DNA of 64,000 nucleotides, taken from Candolleomyces eurysporus (lineage: Eukaryota; Basidiomycota; Agaricomycetes; Agaricales; Psathyrellaceae). The notes beneath the pieces are model-generated. The model was not told the origin of the DNA. It did no database searches and saw nothing but the letters and a program-made list of their open reading frames with translations. Location: assembly GCA_027579435.1 (NCBI GenBank), contig JANBPK010001203.1, positions 46,970 through 110,969 of the forward strand, written 5' to 3'. Each line of letters opens with the position of its first letter. Position 1 is the first letter of the stretch. The translations under genes were made by a program, and so were the position numbers. This document shows positions 39,435 to 63,444 of this stretch, in pieces.

Positions 39435-41952
39435 ATGCTGGGGGCAAAGCGACAACTGAGCCAGGGCAGCGTTGACGCAGTGGGTGAGGTCGAAGCATCT
39501 TCGATAGAGGAGAAGGAACTCACGGACTCCAGATATAATAGGCCCTCCCCTTCAACGTCGACGTTCATCGCTCACGCAGGCAGGCATTGATCGGCGGGAA
39601 GAAGACCATGATCAAAACTATGACGGACATTGTAAGTGGTGGTTGCACTGCTCTGCTCGATGTACTAAACTGACCGACTACTAGATGGACGGATGCAAGG
39701 CAACAACACAGTTGATCAGTACACCGTGTACTATCAACAATCTAGCAATGCTCCGATTTTTAACGGGGATAACTATGGCAGTATTCAAAACAATATCTTC
39801 AACCTCAATGGTAAGCTGAGGAGGAGATGCTTTGCTTCGTTTTCATTAACAAAGCTGTTTGCTCCTAGGTCTCCAGTTTCTGTATCAACATGCCGCTATG
39901 GGAGCCATGCACGAATCCGACGAACGGTACCCCCCTCCGTTATGCCACCCTGGTACTCGCGACGTTGTCGTCGGTCGTATCATAGGCTGGCACTTGAACA
40001 AGGATGGACAGAGGAAGATTATGTGGGTGCACGCGCCCGCGGGATATGGGAAGACTGCAGTCGCTGGAACCGTCAAGGAGAGACTGGATGCGATGCAACT
40101 CGGCTTCGACGGCCCCGTTGGAGCCACCTTCTTCTTCTGGAGGAGCTCTCCGGAGCGCAACTCTCCCGCCCGATTCATTATCACACTCGCCTACCAGCTC
40201 GCTCAAACCATCCCAGAACTTTGTTCCGCCATTCAAGTTGCAATCAAGTCGAAGCCGGGCGTCGTGAAGATGGCGCTTGAGCATCAGCTCACGGAGCTCA
40301 TTGTCAAGCCATTCAAATCCCTCCCCCACCTTGAGACTGTGCCTTGTCGGCTCATTATCGTTGACGGGATCGACGAGTGCATCAACTCGGATCGTGAATC
40401 TCGCATGGAGAAAGCGTACGCTGAAGACCAAGAAATCGTTCAGATTCGAGTCCTCGACCTCATCCATCGCCTCCATTCCCACCATCTTCCCCTTTCATTC
40501 CTCATCCTCAGCAGGCCCGAGGCATGGATCAAGCGGCACTTAGAGTCGAGACCATTTCGTGACGTGGTAGAGCCTCTCGATCTTTACATGGTCGGGGACC
40601 ATATGAATGATGTCAAACGGTTCGTGAGAGCAGAGCTCTCCCGCATGGCAGAGTCTCTTAGTTTTGAAGGAGCCGATGAAGAGTGGCCGGAAGAACAGGC
40701 GTTGGTCCGGAGGAGTGAAGGACACATGGTTTATGCTGCCACTGTTATCCGTCACATCGACGATCCATACGGCGATCCTCGACAGCTACTCAAAAACATC
40801 GTCAACAACCCTCCGGCTGACAGTCCAGAGCTCTCGCATTCCATGCCGTTCTCCGACTCCCTTCACGAGCTCTATAGGCAGATTATGTATTCCTGCCCTC
40901 AACGAAATCGGACCCTGATGGTGGAGGTCCTTGGAGAAATTATGAGCGGGCCATTGTGCGGGTACACTGGACATGAGAATGCCCTCGGTATCCTGGACCG
41001 CGTATCAGGGCGATCTCCTGGCTGTGGAATCAAGGCCCTCAGACCGCTGCATGCAGTTCTTTGGGTTGGGAAAGGCACTCCGTGGATAGAAATTCAGGAG
41101 CTGTTTATCCATTCTTCTTTCCAAGAGTTTCTAGAAAGCCCGGATCTCTCTTTCGAATTTGCCGTGGACGCCAGCAAAGTTCGCGAGCGGCTGCTTTCAA
41201 ATATTCTCGATTGCATGACCTCTATCACTATGGATACAATCGGGAGCGGGCTGGACGCTGTCGGTGTATTTGCCTTGAATAACTGGTGCTGGTATCGGAC
41301 GTCACCCAAATGCGAAACAATGTATCTCCACTTGATGAAGAAGATCCTCGCACTCGACTTCACAGCCTGCATTATTCAAAGTTATGACTCGCGAAACCGA
41401 ATCTTGTTCAGGTTGGCTTTATCTCCTCTGTTCGACTCTTCGAAACCGTCCAGGTTCTTCGTTGAATCCAAGAGGTCGTACCAGTGTGAAGAAACTCTTT
41501 CCATGGCTCACAAAGTCACTTCCCATGTACAATCCTGTCTCGACAGTGCATTCACCATTCTGCTCCAAGAAACCACTCTCCCCGCCTTCTCAGAGCAAGT
41601 GACGGAATGTATGGCATCTCACTGTGCAAGCTATTTGGGAGAGGTGGCCACTGAGGCGAATTGGAGGGAGCACAAGGTGATTCAAGCGTTGACAACTCCT
41701 GGCCCAAACGGAGTTGACCTATTCAAGATGATAATCGAATGCCTCTACGAGCAATCAAAAAAGTTGGAGGTACAATGGATCCGGGACATGCTAGAACATA
41801 TCCACGCGGTTATGGTGTGCGAGAAGAATCCGATTCTGGATTCGGAAGACAATCCATTCCGTAGCTTTCTCTATAAGGCCGAAACGGACTCTGAAACGGA
41901 CTCTGGCACCTTGAAATCCCTGACCTCCAGTGTTGATAGTGGCAAAGAGTAG
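39435..41952 (+). CDS. NACHT-domain NTPase 1 (NLR-like), intact
   Basis: Four exons, every internal junction in phase 1: 39435-39483, 39542-39631, 39685-39810, 39869-41952; about 782 aa. A short N-terminus (LGAKRQLSQGSVDAVG), a basic patch PPLQRRRSSLTQ and the motif SSNAPIFNGDNYGSIQNNIF precede the NACHT part. PPPLCHPGTRDVVVGRIIGW is the usual lead-in of Agaricomycete NACHT proteins. Walker A is APAGYGKTAVAGT (about residue 147), Walker B LIIVDGIDECINSD, followed by LPLSFLILSRPEAWIKRHL. The C-terminal half has no WD40, ankyrin or TPR repeats and ends in a Ser/Asp/Glu tail. Such STAND NTPases act in fungal non-self recognition and regulated cell death. Confidence 0.85.
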
Positions 41953-45717: not shown

Positions 45718-48249
45718 ATGCTAAGGGCCAAGAGGCGGTTGAGCAACGGCAGTGTGGATGCAGTCGGTGAGTTCTAAGCATATTTACCGGTGGAGAAGTA
45801 ACTAACATACTCCGGCCATCATAGGTCCACCCCTTCAACGTCGACGCTCATCGATTACGCAGGCGAGCATTGAGCCACCAGGAGAACATGACGATCTAAA
45901 CGATGACACACGTAGTGCTCGCACCGGTTTTCTCGATGTGCTGAATCGACCGATTACTAGCTCGACGGATGCAAGGTTATAGGCGAGCTTATCAGCCTGC
46001 TGTGTACAACCAACAATTTAGTCATGCTCCTATTATCAATGGCGATATATATGGCAGTGTTCACAACAACATTCGAGATTCCACGCTCGACAGTAAGCCG
46101 AGTACAGGGTGCTTTACGTGGCTTCCACTAACAAAGCTGTTTGCTCCTAGGTCTCCAGTTTCTGTATCAACATGCCGCCATGGGAGCCATGCATGAATCC
46201 AAAGAACGGTGCCCCCCTCCATTATGCCACCCTGGTACTCGCGACGTCGTCGTTCGTCGGGTTATAGGCTGGTACTTGGGCAAGGATGGACGGAAGAAGA
46301 TTATGTGGGTGCATGCGCCTTTGGGGTGTGGGAAGACCGCAGTCGCCGGGACCGTCAAGGAGAGGCTGGATGCGATGGACCTCCATTTCGAAAACCCGGT
46401 TGCGGCAACATTCTTCTTCTGGAGGAGCTCAGCAGAGCGCAACTCTCCTGCCCGATTCATCATCCCCCTCGCTTACCAGCTTGCTCAATCCATCCCGGAA
46501 CTTTGTCCTGGCCTTAAAATTACGATCAAGTCGAAGCCGGGAGTCGGGAAGATGGCGCTCGAAAATCAACTCATCGAGCTCATTGTCAAACCATTCAAAT
46601 CCCTCCCAAATCTCGACGCTATGCCCAATCGGCTTATTATCGTAGACGGGATTGACGAGTGCATCAACTCGGACCGCGAGTCTCTAGTAAAGAAGAAGTA
46701 TGCGGAAGATCAAGAAGCCGTCCAGATTCGAGTCCTTGATCTCATCCATTGTCTGCATTCGCATCATCTCCCCCTTTCGTTCCTCATCCTCAGCAGGCCC
46801 GAGGCATGGATCAAGCGCCACTTGGAGTCAAGACCGTTCAGTGACGTAGTTGAGCCTCTCAATCTTTACAAAGTCGGGGACCACATGAACGATGTCAAAC
46901 AGCTTGTGAGGGCGGAGCTCTCCCGCATTGCAAAACGCCTTGAAGAACCCGGTGAAGAATGGCCAGAAGAAGAGCCATTGGTTCGTAAGAGCGAAGGTCA
47001 CATTGTATACGTGGCCGCCGTTATTCGTCACATCGGCGATGAATACGGCGATCCTCAACAGCTACTCAAGGGTATCGTCGAGAGTTCAGATATGTTACAT
47101 TTCACGCCATTCTCCTCCCTGTACGAGCTCTACAGGCGGATCATGCGATCGTGTCCTGAAAGGAATCGGTCTCTTATGATGGAGGTTCTCGGGGACGTGA
47201 TGGCTGCAGCGGCATACACTCTAGAGTTCTGGGATCATTCACATAATCCAGCTCTTGGCGTCTTAGACCGCCTATCAAAGCGACCTCCTGGCTGTGGAGT
47301 CAAGGTCCTCCGACCCTTGCACGCAGTTCTTCGGGTTGGTAGAGGCAATGAAGACAGCGACATTGGCCAGCTGTTCATCCACTCGTCTTTCAGAGAGTTC
47401 CTGGAGAGCCCGCATCTCTCTTTCGAATTCGCCGTGGACGCCAAAGAAGAAGTGGCGCGGCTGGTTTCAGCTGTGCTCGATCACATGATGTCCACCACCA
47501 CAGATACAATTGGTAGCGAGCTGGAAGATGTCTGTGTATTTGCCTTGCACAACTGGTGCCAGAACTGGTTTCATATCAAGAAGACATTGTTGAAGTCTCA
47601 AACGACCCATCTCCACCTGCTAAATAAGGTAATCTCACTCGACCTCACGGCTTGCATTGTCCAAACATACTGCAGCCTGCACCCGGCCCTATATCACCCT
47701 GACTACCCACCTCTATAATTTTTGTTCGATTCTTCGGAACCCTCCCAGTTCTTCGTCAAACCTATGGAATTGGATGGGTGTGCGGACACTCTTTCCATCG
47801 CCCACAAAGTCACCTCCTATGCACAATGATCTCTCAATAATGCATTCACATTTATGCTTCAAGAAACCACGCCCCTCGCCCTATTACCGGATGCGGTAGA
47901 ATTTCTGGCATGGGACCGCGCCTTTTATTTGCAAGAGGTGACTTCTCAGCCCAACTGGAGGGAGCACGAGATCGTTCGAGCATTGGGAACTCCTGGACCC
48001 AATGGCATTGACCTATGTAGGAGGATTCTTTCTGTGCTCTATGATCAGTTGGGCAAATCTTCTAAAGGAACCAAATACAACCTGCTGAAAAATATGTACA
48101 AGGTTATGGCGCGCGAGAAGAATCCGATTCTAGAATCGGAAGGCGTTCCATTCCGTTGGGACGGCCGAATTGACGAACCGGAATCCGAAAGCGACTACGA
48201 AAGCGACTCATAATCTCTGACCTCCAGTATTAATAGTGACCAAGAGTAG
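45718..48249 (+). pseudogene. NACHT-domain NTPase 2, three nonsense codons
   Basis: Same exon plan as NACHT1: 45718-45766, 45825-45911, 45961-46092, 46151-48249, all phase 1. The pre-NACHT motif is FSHAPIINGDIYGSVHNNI. Walker A is APLGCGKTAVAGT (Cys replaces the Tyr of its paralogues), Walker B LIIVDGIDECINSD. The frame is unshifted over its whole length, but has stops at 47716-47718 (TAA for the TAC of NACHT3), 47827-47829 (TGA for TCA) and 48211-48213 (TAA for GAA). If translated, it would give about 611 aa with a complete NACHT region and no conserved C-terminal domain or acidic tail. Absence of indels suggests recent decay or a tolerated truncation. Confidence 0.8.
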
Positions 48250-52467: not shown

Positions 52468-55400
52468 ATGTTGAGCAGAAAGAGGCAGCTGAGTCAAGGA
52501 AGCGTGGAGGAAGACGGTGAGGTTCAAACATGCTTGATAGTAGGGAAGGAGCTGACGTGCTAGAGCTCTCATAGGCCCGCTCCTTCAACGTCAACGCTCA
52601 TCGATAACACAGATTGACACTGACCGACATCAAGAGAATGGTATTTGCAACCTATACAACTCCGGTACGTGGTCCTGAGCTCTAAGACGAGCCCTACTTA
52701 GCGGGCTGAGCCGCTGTACCGCTAGACCAACAGCCACAAAACCACTGGTATTACGACCATTCTTCCAGCACCGCTCCCGTTTACAGTGCACCCATCAATT
52801 GGGATGACATGTGGGCGCTGGCAAAAGCCTTCATGGATACTCATGACAACGTTTTCAGCCCCGTGAAGACAGGCAGTAGCCCCGGGACATCAGCTCGTAC
52901 TTATGCCTCTCAGACACCTGAAGCTATCATAGGCCCGGTCCGCACCAACTACCACCAAAGGAGTGACGATCAGAACGTTGACTATCATTGTGCGTGATAT
53001 CAGGTTTGGAGCTGAAATCTGTACTGTATACTTAGTTGCTGCATCACTAGACGAAATGCCGCAAGATAGCTGGTGCAACGAACACTCGTCCAGTGATGGT
53101 CCCATTTTTGACAACCTCATATATGGGAGTGACGTCTGGGCGCCAGCGGCCTTCAACGGCTCCGCGACTCCCCCACATGAAGCCCTTATCCTATCTCAGA
53201 CAGGTGGTATCTCTGAAGAGTCAGGTCTTACTGACGCCACCTGGACACCTCACACGACGATAGGCCTGGCCCCCCAATACCATTGGTCATCAGCTACGCA
53301 AGCGAATGAAGATCGCAGCGGTCACGCTTATTGTACGTGGCACTGGTATCAAAATCCCAAGCTGGATCGTTTGTTAATTCGCTCGCCGCCTCCAGATCAA
53401 CAGGCCGAAGCCAATCGCCCGGTTGAGGCACCCGCCGTGTATTATCAGCCGTCCTGCAACGCCCCCATTTTCAATGGACCAGTGTATGGTGGGGTCAGCT
53501 CACAGATTTCCGGTCTTGATGGTGTGTAGGATCTGAAACGTTGGACGGCGATGATACTGACGACATTGTCGACTACCAGGCCTCCAGTTCTTGCTCCCTC
53601 ATGCTGCGATGGGAGCCATGCATGAATCCGAAGAACGGTGTCCCCCCCCCGTTGTGCCACCCTGGTACTCGCGACGTCGTCATTCGTCGGGTTATAGGCT
53701 GGTACTTGAACAAAGATGGACGGAGGAAGATTATGTGGGTGCATGCGCCCTTGGGATATGGGAAGACCGCAGTCGCTGGGACCGTCAAGGAGAAGCTGGA
53801 TGCGATGCAACTCGATTTCGACAGCCCGGTCGGAGCAACGTTCTTCTTCTGGAGGGGCTCGCCGGAGCGCAACTCTCCCGCACGATTCATTATCACCCTC
53901 GCCTACCAGCTCGCTCGATCCATCCCAGAACTTCGCCGCCTCATTGATGCTGCGATCAAATCTGAGCCCGACGTCGTAAAGATGAAGCTTGAGATTCAGC
54001 TTCTGAAACTGATTGTAAAGCCATTCAAGTCCTTTGGTAACCTTGCCACTATGCCCAACAGGCTCGTTATTGTCGACGGGATCGACGAGTGTATCAACTC
54101 GGACCGCGAGTCTCTATTAAAGAAGAAGTACGCCGAAGACCAAGAAGTCGTCCAGATTCGAGTCCTTGATCTCATCCATTGCCTGCATTCACATCATCTC
54201 CCCCTTTCATTCCTCATCCTCAGCAGGCCCGAGGCATGGATCAAGCGCCACTTAGAGTCGGGACCGTTCAGTGACGTAGTTGAGCCTCTCGATCTTTACA
54301 AAGTCGGGGACCACATGAACGATGTCAAACGGTTTGTGAGGGCGGAGCTCTCCCGCATTGCAAAACGCCATGAAATACCTGATGAAGAGTGGCCAGAAGA
54401 AGAGGCGTTGGTTCGTCAGAGCGAAGGCCACATGGTTTACGCTGCCACCGTTATTCGTCACATCGACGATGAATACGGCGATCCTTGACAGCTACTCAAG
54501 GGTATCGTCGAGAGTTCCCCCACCAATAGACCGGATATGTCACATTCCACCCCATTCTCCTCCCTCTATGAGCTCTACAGGCAGATCATGCGATCGTGTC
54601 CTGAAAGGAATCGGTCTCTTATGATGGAGGTTCTCGGGGACGTGATGGCTACAGAGGACGGCGATCTATATCTCTGGGACCATGCGCATAATGCGGCCCT
54701 TGGCGTCTTAGACCGCCTATCAAAGCGACCTCCTGGCTCTGGAGTCAAGGCACTCCGACCCTTGCATGCAGTTCTTCACGTTGGGAGAGGCAATGAAAAC
54801 AGCAACATTCGCGAACTGTTCATCCACTCGTCTTTCAGAGAGTTTCTGCAGAGTCCGCATCTCTCTTTCGAATTCGCTGTGGACGCCAGTGAAGAATTGG
54901 CGCGGCTGGTTTCAGCTATGCTCGATCGCATGGTGTCCATTACCACAGATACAATTGGTGGTGAGCTGGAAGATGTCTGTGTATTTGCCTTGCACAACTG
55001 GTGCCTTAACTGGTATCACAGCAAGAAGACATTGCTGAAGTCCAAAACGACCTATCTCCACCTGCTTAACAAGGTAATCGCACTCGATCTCACGGCCTGC
55101 ATTATCCAAACATACTGCAGCCTGGACCAGGCCCTATATGAACCTGATTACCCACCGCTATACTATTTGTTCAATTCTTCGGAACCATCCAAGTTCTTCG
55201 TCGAATCTATGGAATTGGACGGGTGTGCGGACACTCTTTCCATCGCCCACAAAGTCACCTCCCATGCACAATCATCTCTCGATAATGCATTCACATTTAT
55301 GCTTCAAGCAGCCACGCCCCTCGCCTTATTACCGGATGTAGTAGGTTCTCCAGCATGGGACTGTGCCCTGTATTTGCATGAGGTGGCTTCTCGGCCCAAC

Positions 55401-55685
55401 TGGAGGGAGCACAAGGTCGTTCGAGCATTGGGGACTCCTGGACCCAACGGAATTGGCCTATGTAGGAAGATTCTTTCTGCGCTCTATCATCTGCTGGGCG
55501 ATCCTTATACATACAACCTCCTGAAACATATTTACAAGGTTATGGTGCGCGAGAAGAATCCGATTCTGGAGTCGGAAGATAATCCATTCCTTGACGATGA
55601 CAAAATTCACGAACCCGAATCCGAAAGCGACTACGAAAGCGACTTGGAATCTCTGACCTCCAGTATCGATAGTGACGAAGAGTAG
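52468..55685 (+). pseudogene. NACHT-domain NTPase 3, extra motif exons, frameshift and nonsense
   Basis: Six exons, all internal junctions phase 1: 52468-52516, 52575-52640, 52726-52989, 53051-53332, 53396-53521, 53580-55685. Relative to NACHT1 and 2 it has two more pre-NACHT exons (264 and 282 nt) with variants of the APIFNG..YG motif. Walker A APLGYGKTAVAGT, Walker B LVIVDGIDECINSD. Faults: a nine-C run at 53642-53650 has one base too many against the paralogues, and CGA has become TGA at 54486-54488. After those the frame runs to TAG 55683-55685 with an acidic tail (ESDYESDLESLTSSIDSDEE). The C run may be a sequencing error; the TGA is less easily explained away. Corrected length would be about 963 aa. 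Confidence 0.8.
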
Positions 55686-57828: not shown

Positions 57829-59168
57829 GTACGTTGAAGTGATCTTGTATGGCGAGACTACCAAAACACACAACCTAACACCTACACCAACTCTAAGTCG
57901 AGCCGTGCAAGATAAGCGGTATGTATAGACCTTTGTAGTCGTGCCGTACCAAATCGGGGGTGCGAGTATGGGGGGGTAGTGTAGAGTATTAAGAATTTAC
58001 AGATTCTCTCTCTTGTGCACACTAATTCCAAGTAATCGAGGAGTACTTGATAATCACACAGTTAACCCTAAGGTTACTTCTTTATAACTTTGATCTTTCC
58101 TTTAACTTAGTATCATGCCGCGCGAGATAAAAGTCACAAATCCAGTCGATTGCAAACGCAAAGTAAACACAAATAAAACAGTAGTAATTCTCTGGGGAAA
58201 AACTATGCTAAGAGAGTCCAATATATATACTATCGGGAGCCGCGCGATCACCGGAGCATGATAAATAGGTGTACACGAGATTTATAAATAGAGAGAGTCC
58301 AGGCCCCAGGTAGAGAGAGAGATAAAAAGATAAAAGAGGGTATTGGTTACGCCAAGGTGCCGCCGCGCCACTCCTGCGCTCGCGCCATGACTATTAATAG
58401 ATGTTGTTCGCCTTTTCTGGTATGCCATACGATGCCGAGGTTGATCGAGGGTGGTCAGCTTCTGGTTATTCCTACCGCTGCCTTGGGAGTTATCTTTGCT
58501 CAAGCCGCGTGAGGAGGAGTTGGACCTCCGTCAATTGAGTATCTTTGTCTTGGCAAAAACCCTTGTGACCACTTTCCGGGTTATCTCTTCCGTGAATGGC
58601 CTTCCTTTCAGAGTATATTGAGCTCCTTTCTCATGCCGCGCCAACCATCATGCCGTCTGATGTGCTGAAACCTTGCCATGCCATCTCTTTATGTGCTTAG
58701 GGACTCGTCCCACTGCTCTAGCACTGAATGTACTCGATTAATGTGAGGCCGCACGAGAGTTTAGATTCCTTTAGTGCCTAGGAAAATATCTCTCTAGCTT
58801 TAGTAATGAAACTGGGTCTTTCAGCTGCAGGGTAGGCCGTTTGATCTGAAGCAGTGCCAACCGGCTGGCCTACTAAACCCTAATTTCGGGTATATGGCGG
58901 GCGCACCTCTAAGTCGGCAGTCCTCGAGTAGACTCCAACTCTCGTGAACCCAAGAGTAATGTACTCTTTAATTATCCTTTGCGCCGCGCGAGTTATCTTA
59001 GTACTAGAAGGGTTTCTTAACATAGAGATTTAATAGACATGACCGTCTAGTTAATAATGAACAGTATATTCAATAAAGTTGGTATTTATTCGCAAAAATG
59101 CGAATACGGTCGTATCAACGTTACAGTTCATTTTGGTGTATTATTTCACTAACACAAGCTTCACTTAG
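57829..59168 (+). other. 1.34-kb intron of the transposase, probably carrying an insertion
   Basis: The exons before (PQKV) and after (LDHIRG) join in phase 0, and donor gtacgt and acceptor cttag are normal. At 1,340 nt it is some 20 times the usual intron here. It is AT-rich with recurring gccgcgc(gag) blocks (58115, 58238, 58633, 58981), unlike surrounding DNA. A nested non-coding element, possibly a solo LTR, is likely, but its ends could not be fixed. Confidence 0.5.
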
Positions 59169-60577
59169 CTTGATCACATCCGTGGCAACGTATATGATGA
59201 AGGCAACCTCGAAAATCTTCGTTCTGGAGATGCAAAATGCTCCGAGTTTGTCACTCGTGCGGATGTTCAACGGATTGAGAAGGCAATTGAGCAAGAAATG
59301 ATCCGTTTGGCCAAGGACGATGGCCCATTGGTTCTTCAATGGGTAGAGAATATGAAAAAGGAAGGACACAACGTGTTTTTCAAGTCTAGTGCTGACCCTT
59401 GCCCATCCAACTCAAATCTGGACAGAAGATCTTTCTTTTTACTCATTCAAACAAAGTACCAGAAAGAGTGCTGGGAGAAACATGGTTCTTGGTTTGCAGC
59501 CATGGATGCAACACATAATACTACCCATTACGAGAATATGAGTCTCTTTACACTCTTAGCACGCGATCGGTGGGGTCATGGTATGTCAATCCAATCATTT
59601 CTTGTGTTCCGTGCTGACTTATCATTTGATTTAGGGGTCCCAGTTGCATGGTTGATCTCTTCAAATGCAACTGAAGACACAATTACATACTTCTTGAAAT
59701 TCGTTCGCTCTTGTTCTCCATCTGTGGTGCCTGAATACTTCATGTCAGACAAAGATCAGGGTCAGCTAAATACACTTTTAACCCTGAATCTAAGGTTCGT
59801 CTATGCTGGTGGCATGTCCTACATGCATGGCAGCAGCGATTTGATATAAATCTGCATGCGGAGCTCTGGGGGCACCTCAAGAAATGGATTCGCATCACCG
59901 ATGAGGTCGAGTTTTGGGCAGCTTGGGACAAGATACAGCTCAAAGCACCCGAGAGCGTAATTACCTACCTCACAGCAAACTGGCTACCAATTATCAAGCT
60001 CTGGTCTGCTGTCTATCGTAAAGAATGGACACTTTTCCAGCCCTGTGATACAAACATGCTTGTTGAAGCATGGCATCACCTCCTCAAGTCAAAATTCATG
60101 CAAGGGAAGCGTAACCGATGACTCGATCATTTAATTTTTATTCTGGTCAAGCAAGCTGTTCCATACTTCATTCACAGGCACCGCTCACAAGAGTTTGGCT
60201 TTGAAGGTGGGGATCTTGAGGTCCATGAGCATCAAAAGCTCCAGAAACAGGCATGCAAAATTCCACTTGATGACATCACCCGTTCAGAAGAAGACGAGAA
60301 CATATTCTCTGTACGATCTCAAACCAAAAAAGACTGCACTTATGTTGTTGATCTTGAAGCCTACGACTGCACCTGCCCTGCATTCCCGCACACCATTCTC
60401 TGCAAACACATTTTCGCGGTTCAACTCCATTTCCCCGAGATTTGCAAACCAGTCTCTTGCTTGGCCCTTGCTATCACACCAGATGATACCTTTGAAGACT
60501 GCTCCGCTCAGTTCCAAATGGCCGCTCCGCTGCTACCCCTTGATCTGGAGATTGATAATCGATCCAAATCAGCATCA

Positions 60578-61646
60578 TGTTATGTAATAACCCCTAGGGT
60601 ATCTGTTTTTTTCTATTGTTTACTTGTATTTGACTTGGACTCCCTCAGACTTCTCTCCTTAGTAGCACGCTATCTTTCCCCTTTGCTCCAGTCTTAACCC
60701 TTAGCCCGAGGACACCCTTGACCCTGTGGTTCTTTTTCTCATCTGTTTTCTTTTACCCTGCTTCTTTTGCCCTTTACCCTGCTTCTTTGCTATTAATAGT
60801 CGACAGAACCTGATAGCTATCAAGTAGGAACAGTAGAAGCACAAATGCTGGTCATCAGAGTCAAGCCAGCCCGGACTTGCCTGATCAGTTCAAGTAGTAT
60901 AAATACTGAGCTGAACTGTAGTAGTTCTTTAGCTTGTTCTCGAGAATCAAACCTCGTCTACTTGTACCTGGTGCCTGACAGACTTNCCCCCCGACTTCTT
61001 TACCCTGTGCATGCTCAAACTGAGAACACAGTGGACGCTCAACAACGAGTACATTCGCCTCGACATTGTCCCTCATCTTCCTCTCGTCGGAGGCATAGAC
61101 CTTATCCTAGGCCAAGTGCTTCTCACAATACCGATCATTCATCCCCTCGCCCTATTCAATTCACTCAACGTTTCCCAATTGTCGCTGTCTGCTCAAGAGC
61201 TGGTAGGAACCCTACAGCTACGACATCTATTGGGTCCCTTCACTATGAAGAAGGAACAACTATTGTGGATATTACGTGCTTCGAACGCCATCCAGACGAA
61301 AGAGTTATCTCCAACTCTTTCGAACTCCGAGTAACCAACTACATCAACGACGTCGTCCTCATGCTTACGCGATATTGAAGAAGGACTTCGTTCCCTCAAA
61401 TTCCCCTCACTCAATCCTCTTCAAGAGTACCTTCTTTGAACAGAAGGAACCCCTCTTAGTGACGCCCTCGAACCTACTCCTCCCCTCCTCCCTTTTCCAA
61501 ACCCTCCTTCCTCTTCCCCTGTTCCTCCTCAACAGATTCTTCTTACAGAAGCAACTTGTGAAAGAGGCGTTCTTTCTCATTCACTTTACACTTGGCAGCG
61601 ATACGCTTCAAGCCCCAGAATATCAGTGATCTCACTCAACATCTGT
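60578..61646 (+). mobile_element. Nested LTR-retroelement fragment in the MULE gene
   Basis: CATCA lies on both sides (60573-60577, 61647-61651), and removing the insert rejoins the transposase frame (SKSAS then PSRSPIHRT). The left 403 bp (60578-60980) look like an LTR: TGTTATGTAATAACCCC start, tataaata at about 60895, and ggtgcctgaca end. The rest carries pol-like debris (LPLVGGIDLILGQ resembles a retroviral-type protease region) in shifting frames. N at 60986. The right end lacks a second LTR, so this is a truncated copy. Confidence 0.6.
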
Positions 61647-62559
61647 CATCACCCTCCCGATCCCCGATTCACAGAACAATATCATCTTTCACTGTTTCTC
61701 ATCACAGTGAATCTTCATACCTCGTCTTGTATTGTCGAACCTCTGGACAATCTGAGGTACTCCATAACACATCAGCTACACAAATCGATTCTGTTGTTGC
61801 CTCACTTTCTGCTTTCATCGGTCAATTGAAAGCAGTGGATCCTTTAGAAGTCAACATCGAGAGGCTACACAGACTTCAGAATGTTATCAATGACTTCATG
61901 CACGATGGATTCTGCATGAACTCAAACACTTCTGTCCTTCCACCAAAGAAGAAAGTTGCTCCCAATCAACACTCTTGGACTGAGACTGCTGAAGTGATGG
62001 GGGTGCGCGTTAAGAGCAAACGAAAATCAGAACATACAGATCCTTATTCTGGTGGCAAGCGGTCAGGGAAAAAGGCATGTCCTGATGCACTGCAACTCTT
62101 ATTGACAAAAGCTCCCGCAATAGCCACCAAACCTCAACCAACAACCCACATGAGCCTCATACCACCTGCACCACCAACATCACTTCCAGTTTCACAGCCC
62201 AATCTCATTTCTACACAGTCTACGCAGCCACCAGTTCCCCAGACTTTCCTTCCATACACATCCTTCGACGTTGCTCAGGCTTCTGAGTCTCAGTTTGATC
62301 CGACAACCTTCGATTTGCACAATACTCGCGCACTTATGTATCTCAAGAGAGCGGATCTAACTGCTCTCTGTAGACTGTATACTTTATCAGCTGGGGGAGG
62401 GAATGATGCTATGATTAAGAGGCTTCAGGCCGTCGCTGGCAAAACATGTCGAACTTAGTGTATTTTTTGTGTATCTAGAAACGAGCTGATTCATTGTTGA
62501 TGCACGCTGGCGCCGGTTACCGGACCAAACCACATTCCTAATAAGGACTATCCCCAGTG

Positions 62560-62578
62560 GGAACTGGGGCAAAAAGTC
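62560..62578 (-). repeat. Right terminal inverted repeat of the MULE
   Basis: Inverse of 57140-57158 with one mismatch. NACHT4 coding sequence starts within a few bases to its right. Confidence 0.75.
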
Positions 62579-62579
62579 G

Positions 62580-63444
62580 CCAACTGCTGTTCATCCACTC
62601 GTCTTTCAGAGAGTTCCTGCAGAGTCCGCATCTCTCTTTCAAATTCGCCGTGGACGCCAGTGAAGAATTGGCGCGGCTGGTTTCAGCTATGCTCGATCGC
62701 ATGATGTCCATCACCACAGATACAATTGGTAGCAAGCTGGAAGAGATCTGTGTATTTGCCTTGCACAACTGGTACTCAAACTGGTATTACAGCAAGAAGA
62801 CGTGGTTGAAGTCCAAAACGACCTATCTCCACCTGCTAAACAAGGTAATCGCACTCGACCTCATGGCCTGCATTATCCAAACATTCTGCAGCCTGGACCC
62901 GGCCCTATATTGTGACGAGCCACCTTTATACCATTTGTTCGATTGTTCGGAACCATCCAAGTTCTTCGTTGAATCTATGGAATTGGACGGGTGTGCGGAC
63001 ACACTTTCCATCGCCCACAAAGTCATCTCCCATGCACAATCATCTCTTGATAATGCATTCACATTCATGCTCCAGGCAACCACGCCCCTCGCCTTATCAT
63101 CAGGTGTGTTAGAGCCACCGGCATGTAACTGTGCCTCTTATTTCCATGAGGTGACTTCTCAGCCCAACTGGAGGGAGCACAAGGTCGTTCAAGCATTGGG
63201 GACTCCTGGACCCAACCGAATTGGCCTATGTAGGCAGATTCTTTATGAGCTCTATGATTGGTTGGACCGTCCGAATGAAGCAATCAAATACAACCTGGTT
63301 ATGGTGCGCGAGAAGAATCCGATTCTGGAGTCGGAGGACAATCCATTCCTTGGGGATGACGAAATTGATGAACCGGAATCCGAAAGCGACTACGAAAGCG
63401 ACTCGGAATCTCTGACCTCCAGTATTGATAGTGACAAAGAGTAG
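62580..63444 (+). pseudogene. NACHT-domain NTPase 4, C-terminal remnant
   Basis: From LLFIHSSFREFLQSPHLSF the frame follows NACHT3 from about genomic 54815 to its end: DASEELARLVSAMLDRM, then FALHNWYSNWYYSKK, CADTLSIAHKVISHAQSS, NWREHKVVQALGTPGPN and the acidic tail ESDYESDSESLTSSIDSDKE, stop 63442-63444. About 288 codons remain, without NACHT, Walker motifs or promoter. Relative to NACHT3 about eight residues are missing before MVREKNPI. The frame is otherwise open, so the truncation by the MULE junction may be recent. Confidence 0.8.

Follow-up and report, generated by a model that had tools for sequence, protein, structure and literature searches.

The window analysed here, a 64,000-nucleotide stretch of a Candolleomyces eurysporus contig, holds three NACHT genes, referred to as NACHT1, NACHT2 and NACHT3, and a C-terminal fragment of a fourth (Table 1). 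Only NACHT1 retains a full-length frame, and the public protein H1R20_g12269 (P0001) is identical to our four-exon model of this gene. A NACHT domain was recognized in P0001 by PF24883 (E 7.5e-20) and by PF05729 (29.1 bits versus a cut-off of 26.7). PF24883 was likewise detected in all of the best 120 of 148 homologues retrieved with the first 200 residues of NACHT1 as query, and the named organisms among these were three Candolleomyces species. Pfam searches of P0001, P0013, P0020 and P0053 gave no match to a C-terminal repeat domain (WD, ANK, TPR or LRR). NACHT2 ends prematurely. NACHT3 carries a run of nine C residues that shifts the frame relative to NACHT1 and NACHT2, and an in-frame stop codon further downstream; from this combination NACHT3 is probably a pseudogene, and the frameshift at the nine-C run may alternatively derive from a sequencing error. 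The splicing of the public models departs from that of our models at the end of NACHT2 and at the start and in the middle of NACHT3. The frames at positions 59150 to 60600, which precede the fourth NACHT fragment (62545), resemble by eye a transposase whose C-terminal stretch is zinc-finger-like.

Table 1. Features of the NACHT genes in the window (positions count from the first nucleotide of the window)
Feature	Position	Strand	Details
NACHT1 (H1R20_g12269)	39435..41952	+	exons 39435-39483, 39542-39631, 39685-39810 (motif exon), 39869-41952; intact 782-aa frame
NACHT1 motif copy YTVYYQQSSNAPIFNGDNYGSIQN	39720..39791	+	40.6 bits; model includes this copy
NACHT2 (H1R20_g12270)	45718..47718	+	exons 45718-45766, 45825-45911, 45961-46092 (motif exon), 46151-47718; premature end, TAA 47716-47718
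NACHT2 motif copy PAVYNQQFSHAPIINGDIYGSVHN	45996..46067	+	46.3 bits; model includes this copy
NACHT3 (H1R20_g12271)	52468..55685	+	exons 52468-52516, 52575-52640, 52726-52989, 53051-53332, 53396-53521 (motif exon), 53580-55685
NACHT3 exon 3	52726..52989	+	phase 1-1; 4.0 bits versus motif, reached by 2/1000 shuffles; 3.6 bits in window scan
NACHT3 exon 4	53051..53332	+	phase 1-1; 5.2 bits versus motif, reached by 2/1000 shuffles; 3.3 bits in window scan
NACHT3 motif copy PAVYYQPSCNAPIFNGPVYGGVSS	53431..53502	+	42.3 bits; 50.0 bits by NLR-only model; both models include this copy
Nine-C run, NACHT3	53642..53650	+	frame shift, ahead of NACHT domain
In-frame TGA, NACHT3	54486..54488	+	inside NACHT exon
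Fourth NACHT gene, C-terminal fragment	62545..63444	+	no motif found nearby

Each of the three genes encodes, in a short exon ahead of the NACHT exon, one clear copy of a motif of about 20 residues, [VI]-[YF]-x-Q-x(4)-[AG]-P-I-[FY]-N-G-x-I-x-G-x-V. This exon had been pointed out in all three genes by the first-pass annotation, together with the claim that the exons preceding the NACHT domain start and end in phase 1, and both statements were confirmed: in all our models the internal pre-NACHT exons are phase 1-1 and bounded by GT-AG sites, with lengths of 90 and 126 bases in NACHT1, 87 and 132 in NACHT2, and 66, 264, 282 and 126 in NACHT3. The first exon of each gene spans 49 bases from the ATG and ends in phase 1. 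A six-frame scan of the window, using a model of 59 distinct motif copies that included those of the window itself, found three strong places, one per NACHT gene, with scores of 40.6-46.3 bits; no unrelated stretch exceeded 4.4 bits. Genome-wide, a donor site was found by a simple rule after 32 of 36 NLR motif copies (three of them from the window), and it was in phase 1 in 32 of 32. The motif was recovered by pattern in 35 of the best 120 (of 148) NACHT1 homologues, and in the 34 homologues where the distance was measurable it sits 38-44 residues before a conserved ER-x-PPP stretch. In an alignment of 23 copies Q, N and G are invariant, and P, I and G nearly so.

Two further exons of NACHT3, exons 3 and 4, had been regarded as carrying looser versions of the motif. 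These exons are clear duplicates of each other (score 91, reached by 0 of 2000 shuffles), whereas against the motif exon they scored 34 and 35, and of 2000 shuffles 26 and 21, respectively, did as well. Thus, duplication of exons is real, and it is not established for the motif exon; the likeness to the motif itself is marginal, as the bit scores in Table 1 indicate. The idea that the motif is repeated within the NLRs of the window is not supported: a single clear copy was seen in each gene, and it is in non-NLR proteins that clear repeats occur. A block close to NACHT3 exon 4 (score 182) is present in P0012, which is encoded at another locus, and this resemblance indicates that exon 4 is a real N-terminal element, which may be related to the motif distantly or in decayed form.

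The occurrence of the motif was surveyed across the genome. A DNA pattern for its core gave 59 matches, versus 14 for the same pattern reversed. Three consensus protein queries gave 53, 60 and 51 matches, which merged to 83 places; the second query when reversed gave 0 matches versus 60 forward, its first search stage having passed no candidate. A NACHT preface was found no more than about 0.6 kb downstream at 39 of the 83 places, no NACHT was found at 43, and one place was unread. The motif is conserved well beyond the locus, in support of the first-pass interpretation. Of the 43 places, 11 have no more than 1.5 kb downstream an exon of the family named here GDVG after a stretch of its sequence, four of the 11 being so assigned on position alone, and 32 are others; 12 of the 56 GDVG places in the genome, picked by contig and position, were used for this classification. 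A six-frame scan found no non-NLR copy in the window. Of the 44 places not assigned to NLRs, 18 fall in the 27-117 kb region of contig C1133, where non-NLR motif frames cluster in both orientations; two of the 18 precede GDVG exons, and the C1133 stretches examined showed no sign of NACHT. Because contigs C327 and C994, C1109 and C328, and C77 and C947 seem to be duplicated, the number of independent places is lower than these counts. Motif places on the two contigs of each pair score equally or nearly so, which suggests that the assembly contains parts of both nuclear haplotypes.

Queried alone, the NLR-derived consensus listed several non-NLR places at E-values of 6e-4 to 3e-3 but only one of the 11 GDVG places, at E 0.19. 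With a model built exclusively from NLR copies, all 16 non-NLR sequences tested scored between 17.0 and 43.5 bits, and 3200 shuffles reached 7.8 at best; since these 16 sequences had been preselected by motif searches, the scores document likeness and are not an independent test. It is the genome-wide E-values and the reversed control that carry the weight for sharing of the motif between NLRs and non-NLR proteins. The first-pass annotation had held that a motif present both in NLRs and in separate effectors would support a signalling amyloid. The motif was indeed found in NLRs as well as in separate proteins, of which some have two copies, so that this expectation is largely borne out; the part concerning effectors is not, as none was identified among the carriers. 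A protein search with a chimeric query that joined five motif variants listed 15 proteins at E-values up to 10, all from Candolleomyces, 12 of them NACHT proteins and three of them relatives of the two-copy protein H1R20_g6743. The proteins it reached were about 290-920 amino acids long, and because it depends on five-residue words in common it may miss distant relatives. Compared with the PDB, the NLR motif profile matched only two antibody chains, and we regard these hits (E 1.1) as chance. No paper recognisable by title and start of abstract as describing the motif was found in the literature, and short motif strings used as literature queries returned titles on other subjects.

Among the non-NLR carriers, H1R20_g6743 is an annotated protein of 426 amino acids. 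In our model its two motif copies lie on different exons with a phase-1 junction, and the public model is slightly unlike ours; the tail of the protein is rich in proline and serine and has no Pfam match. Relatives are found in C. aberdarensis (91%) and C. efflorescens (64%), and the two-copy protein is kept in three species. For the C. aberdarensis protein P0122 (EST38_g9485), the annotation apparently joins an upstream gene of similar start, MEFFTNARNFSMGNVEFKTVQGDYHD, to the g6743 relative. Two copies are present in P0121, P0123 and several genes of contig C1133, and one in the GDVG-family carriers. C1133 genes other than g6743 contain, in our reading, little beyond two motif copies, the second followed by EGYxxxPE. 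The motif lies near the N-terminus in P0121, P0123 and the GDVG-family exons read, as judged for the latter from the first ATG of the open frame. A donor site was found in 23 of 35 non-NLR rows, among which some genes recur, and it was in phase 1 in 16, phase 2 in five and phase 0 in two. The GDVG family has the motif ahead at 11 of its 56 genome places; its own region gave no credible match in Pfam or the PDB (chance-level Pfam E-values of 0.045-0.21), and similar sequences are presumably widespread in Agaricomycetes.

No confident Pfam match was obtained in the non-NLR sequences scanned, which represent part of the carriers, and a HeLo model searched exon by exon against the genome, a procedure that introns can defeat, returned nothing credible. 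A dsRNA-binding domain was considered for loci L071 and L081 and discarded: PF00035 matched joined exon pieces at E 0.049 and 0.041, below the cut-off, and a genome search with PF00035 listed 10 places without L071 and L081. Two-copy proteins bridging two NLR classes were also considered, given that the additional N-terminal block 'A' of these proteins, SFFQEASNFKMNNVNFRNIQGN, resembles by eye an alternative sister-NLR N-terminus, SYFKNANNFVANNPTFNTYVSG. With a model of SYFKNANNFVANNPTFNTYVSG-type N-termini, a gapless stack of 27 distinct segments, the scores of six standalone sequences ranged from -2.6 to 7.3 bits, and only P0123 (7.3 versus 5.7) and P0122 (4.8 versus 4.7) fell barely above the best of 500 shuffles; bridging is not claimed. 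At locus L041 (C1133:38000-40500, minus strand) a second frame comes after the motif frame; its roughly 180 residues look like a folded domain, have no Pfam match and may belong to the same gene or to a separate one. Locus L082 (C985:154000-157100, minus strand) has one uninterrupted frame that holds three HNGPIFGN repeats and a fourth, looser copy.

Sharing of the motif with unrelated small non-NLR proteins makes these proteins candidate signalling partners of the receptors. We give an even chance to the reading that the motif is a homotypic assembly motif that would stack receptors with the non-NLR carriers, most likely as an amyloid-type structure. When NACHT is triggered, the receptor would oligomerise and bring together the motifs ahead of NACHT; the clustered motifs would then recruit non-NLR proteins with the same motif, whether single or in tandem. 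This recruitment would most likely proceed through amyloid-type beta-arches that stack on each other, like those of the ascomycete NWD2/HET-S pathway. Physical interaction, amyloid nature, direction of signalling and partner activity are what we infer here, and the signalling-amyloid reading is plausible. A wider proposal, more tentative and short of an even chance, is that an unnamed signalling motif may run the Candolleomyces NLR network through partners that carry it near their N-termini, often in tandem, the disordered-looking two-copy proteins being possible polymerising adaptors and the multigene GDVG family a possible new executor.

According to a survey of agaricomycete NLRs, NACHT proteins of this group have short N-termini, with many amyloid-like motifs, and many copies per genome, and very few partners have been identified on the effector side (PMC9815663). 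Searches so far are described as biased towards the NLR/executor architecture in PMC7889193, and the Candolleomyces non-NLR carriers fit the gap so left. If the wider proposal is correct, effector searches limited to C-termini and known death domains would have missed partners with an N-terminal motif. Since the locus yields a list of non-NLR loci that share one NLR motif in one genome, signalling targets of basidiomycete NLRs become directly testable.

Most of the data would be explained equally well if the motif docked on one common third protein, be it a chaperone, a scaffold or a localisation receptor, where the carriers would meet and never stack; this applies in particular to the fixed Q and N-G positions and to the presence of the motif in unrelated proteins. 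The tandem pairs of some partners, combined with a single copy per receptor, resemble homotypic systems, and we consider docking possible and rather unlikely.

A selection analysis of the motif bears on a further account, which we consider improbable, namely that it is a recycled N-terminal module, exon-shuffled between multigene families and kept for a local reason such as translation, stability or spacing. Symmetric phase-1 exons move easily, and the carriers occur in many copies, some of them in clusters. In comparisons of 36 NLR with 23 distinct non-NLR copies, in which the pairs are not independent, pS was however saturated, 0.77 at core and 0.81 at other positions, and yet the non-synonymous difference was 0.14 in the core versus 0.63 elsewhere, nine of the 12 core positions having belonged to the pattern by which copies were collected. 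This combination of synonymous saturation between the classes and a preserved core indicates that the sharing is old and selected. At the core positions outside the collecting pattern, Y is found in 19 and V in 11 of the 23 non-NLR copies, and Q in all 23 as well as in 35 of the 36 NLR copies; Q was absent from the collecting pattern but present in the queries that found the loci.

Comparison of close NLR pairs, which are not independent of one another, gave synonymous to non-synonymous changes of 24:0 for Q, 48:0 for N, 51:9 for P, 40:5 for I and 54:12 for G at position 20. Hydrophobic positions 3, 4 and 14 varied within the types V/I, Y/F and F/Y, and changes at the unlabelled positions of the motif were mostly non-synonymous. 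With the same dependence among pairs, dN/dS was 0.31 in 114 close NLR pairs versus 0.55 in 102 non-NLR pairs, pointing to weaker constraint in the latter, and the ratio of non-synonymous to synonymous changes in 80 NLR pairs was 0.24 in the motif versus 0.36 in the adjoining upstream linker codons, a modest difference that also tells against retention of a shuffled module for a local reason. From these substitution patterns, the core of the motif is under strong purifying selection. The motif is real and selected, it is common to NLRs and non-NLR proteins, and it was detected in one genus only.

AlphaFold modelled P0121 with very low confidence (mean pLDDT 37), too low for the model to be informative. 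It is highly improbable that the motif is one rung of a beta-solenoid folded within each protein, with no intermolecular role: hydrophobic, N-G and G positions do alternate, and the model of the four-copy L082 protein has short strands at three copies, where its confidence is highest, but the models are of very low confidence (mean pLDDT 38 for L082) and the single, isolated rung of each receptor would hardly be stable alone.

Homotypic assembly can be compared with known systems. The NWD2/HET-S and HRAM pairs, as presented in PMC5485727, likewise have a short motif N-terminal to NACHT, in one copy per NLR, and this motif recurs twice in separate proteins. Two repeats are present in 155 of 579 ascomycete HeLo or HeLo-like proteins, and the gene adjacent to such two-repeat proteins is usually an NLR with a further copy (PMC5485727). 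Unlike these pairs, the Candolleomyces partners scanned have no HeLo domain, no partner gene lies in the window, and no NACHT sign was seen near partner genes in the C1133 stretches examined; also, the motif is C-terminal in the known partners and near the N-terminus in Candolleomyces carriers with readable starts. The likeness to HRAM is one of arrangement. The amyloid-like N-terminal motifs NLR05, NLR08, NLR22, NLR29 and NLR44 of agaricomycetes (PMC9815663) have a similar setting, in NACHT proteins with short N-termini and many copies per genome; that survey scanned the C-termini of effectors, whereas several Candolleomyces partners carry the motif near the N-terminus. Finally, the PP motif and mammalian RHIM are also short and likewise conserve a Q and several G. 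The GxQxG that they have in common (PMC5485727) is absent from the Candolleomyces motif: across 36 NLR and 23 non-NLR copies, the commonest residues two positions before Q do not include G, and two positions after Q it is common in only part of the copies.
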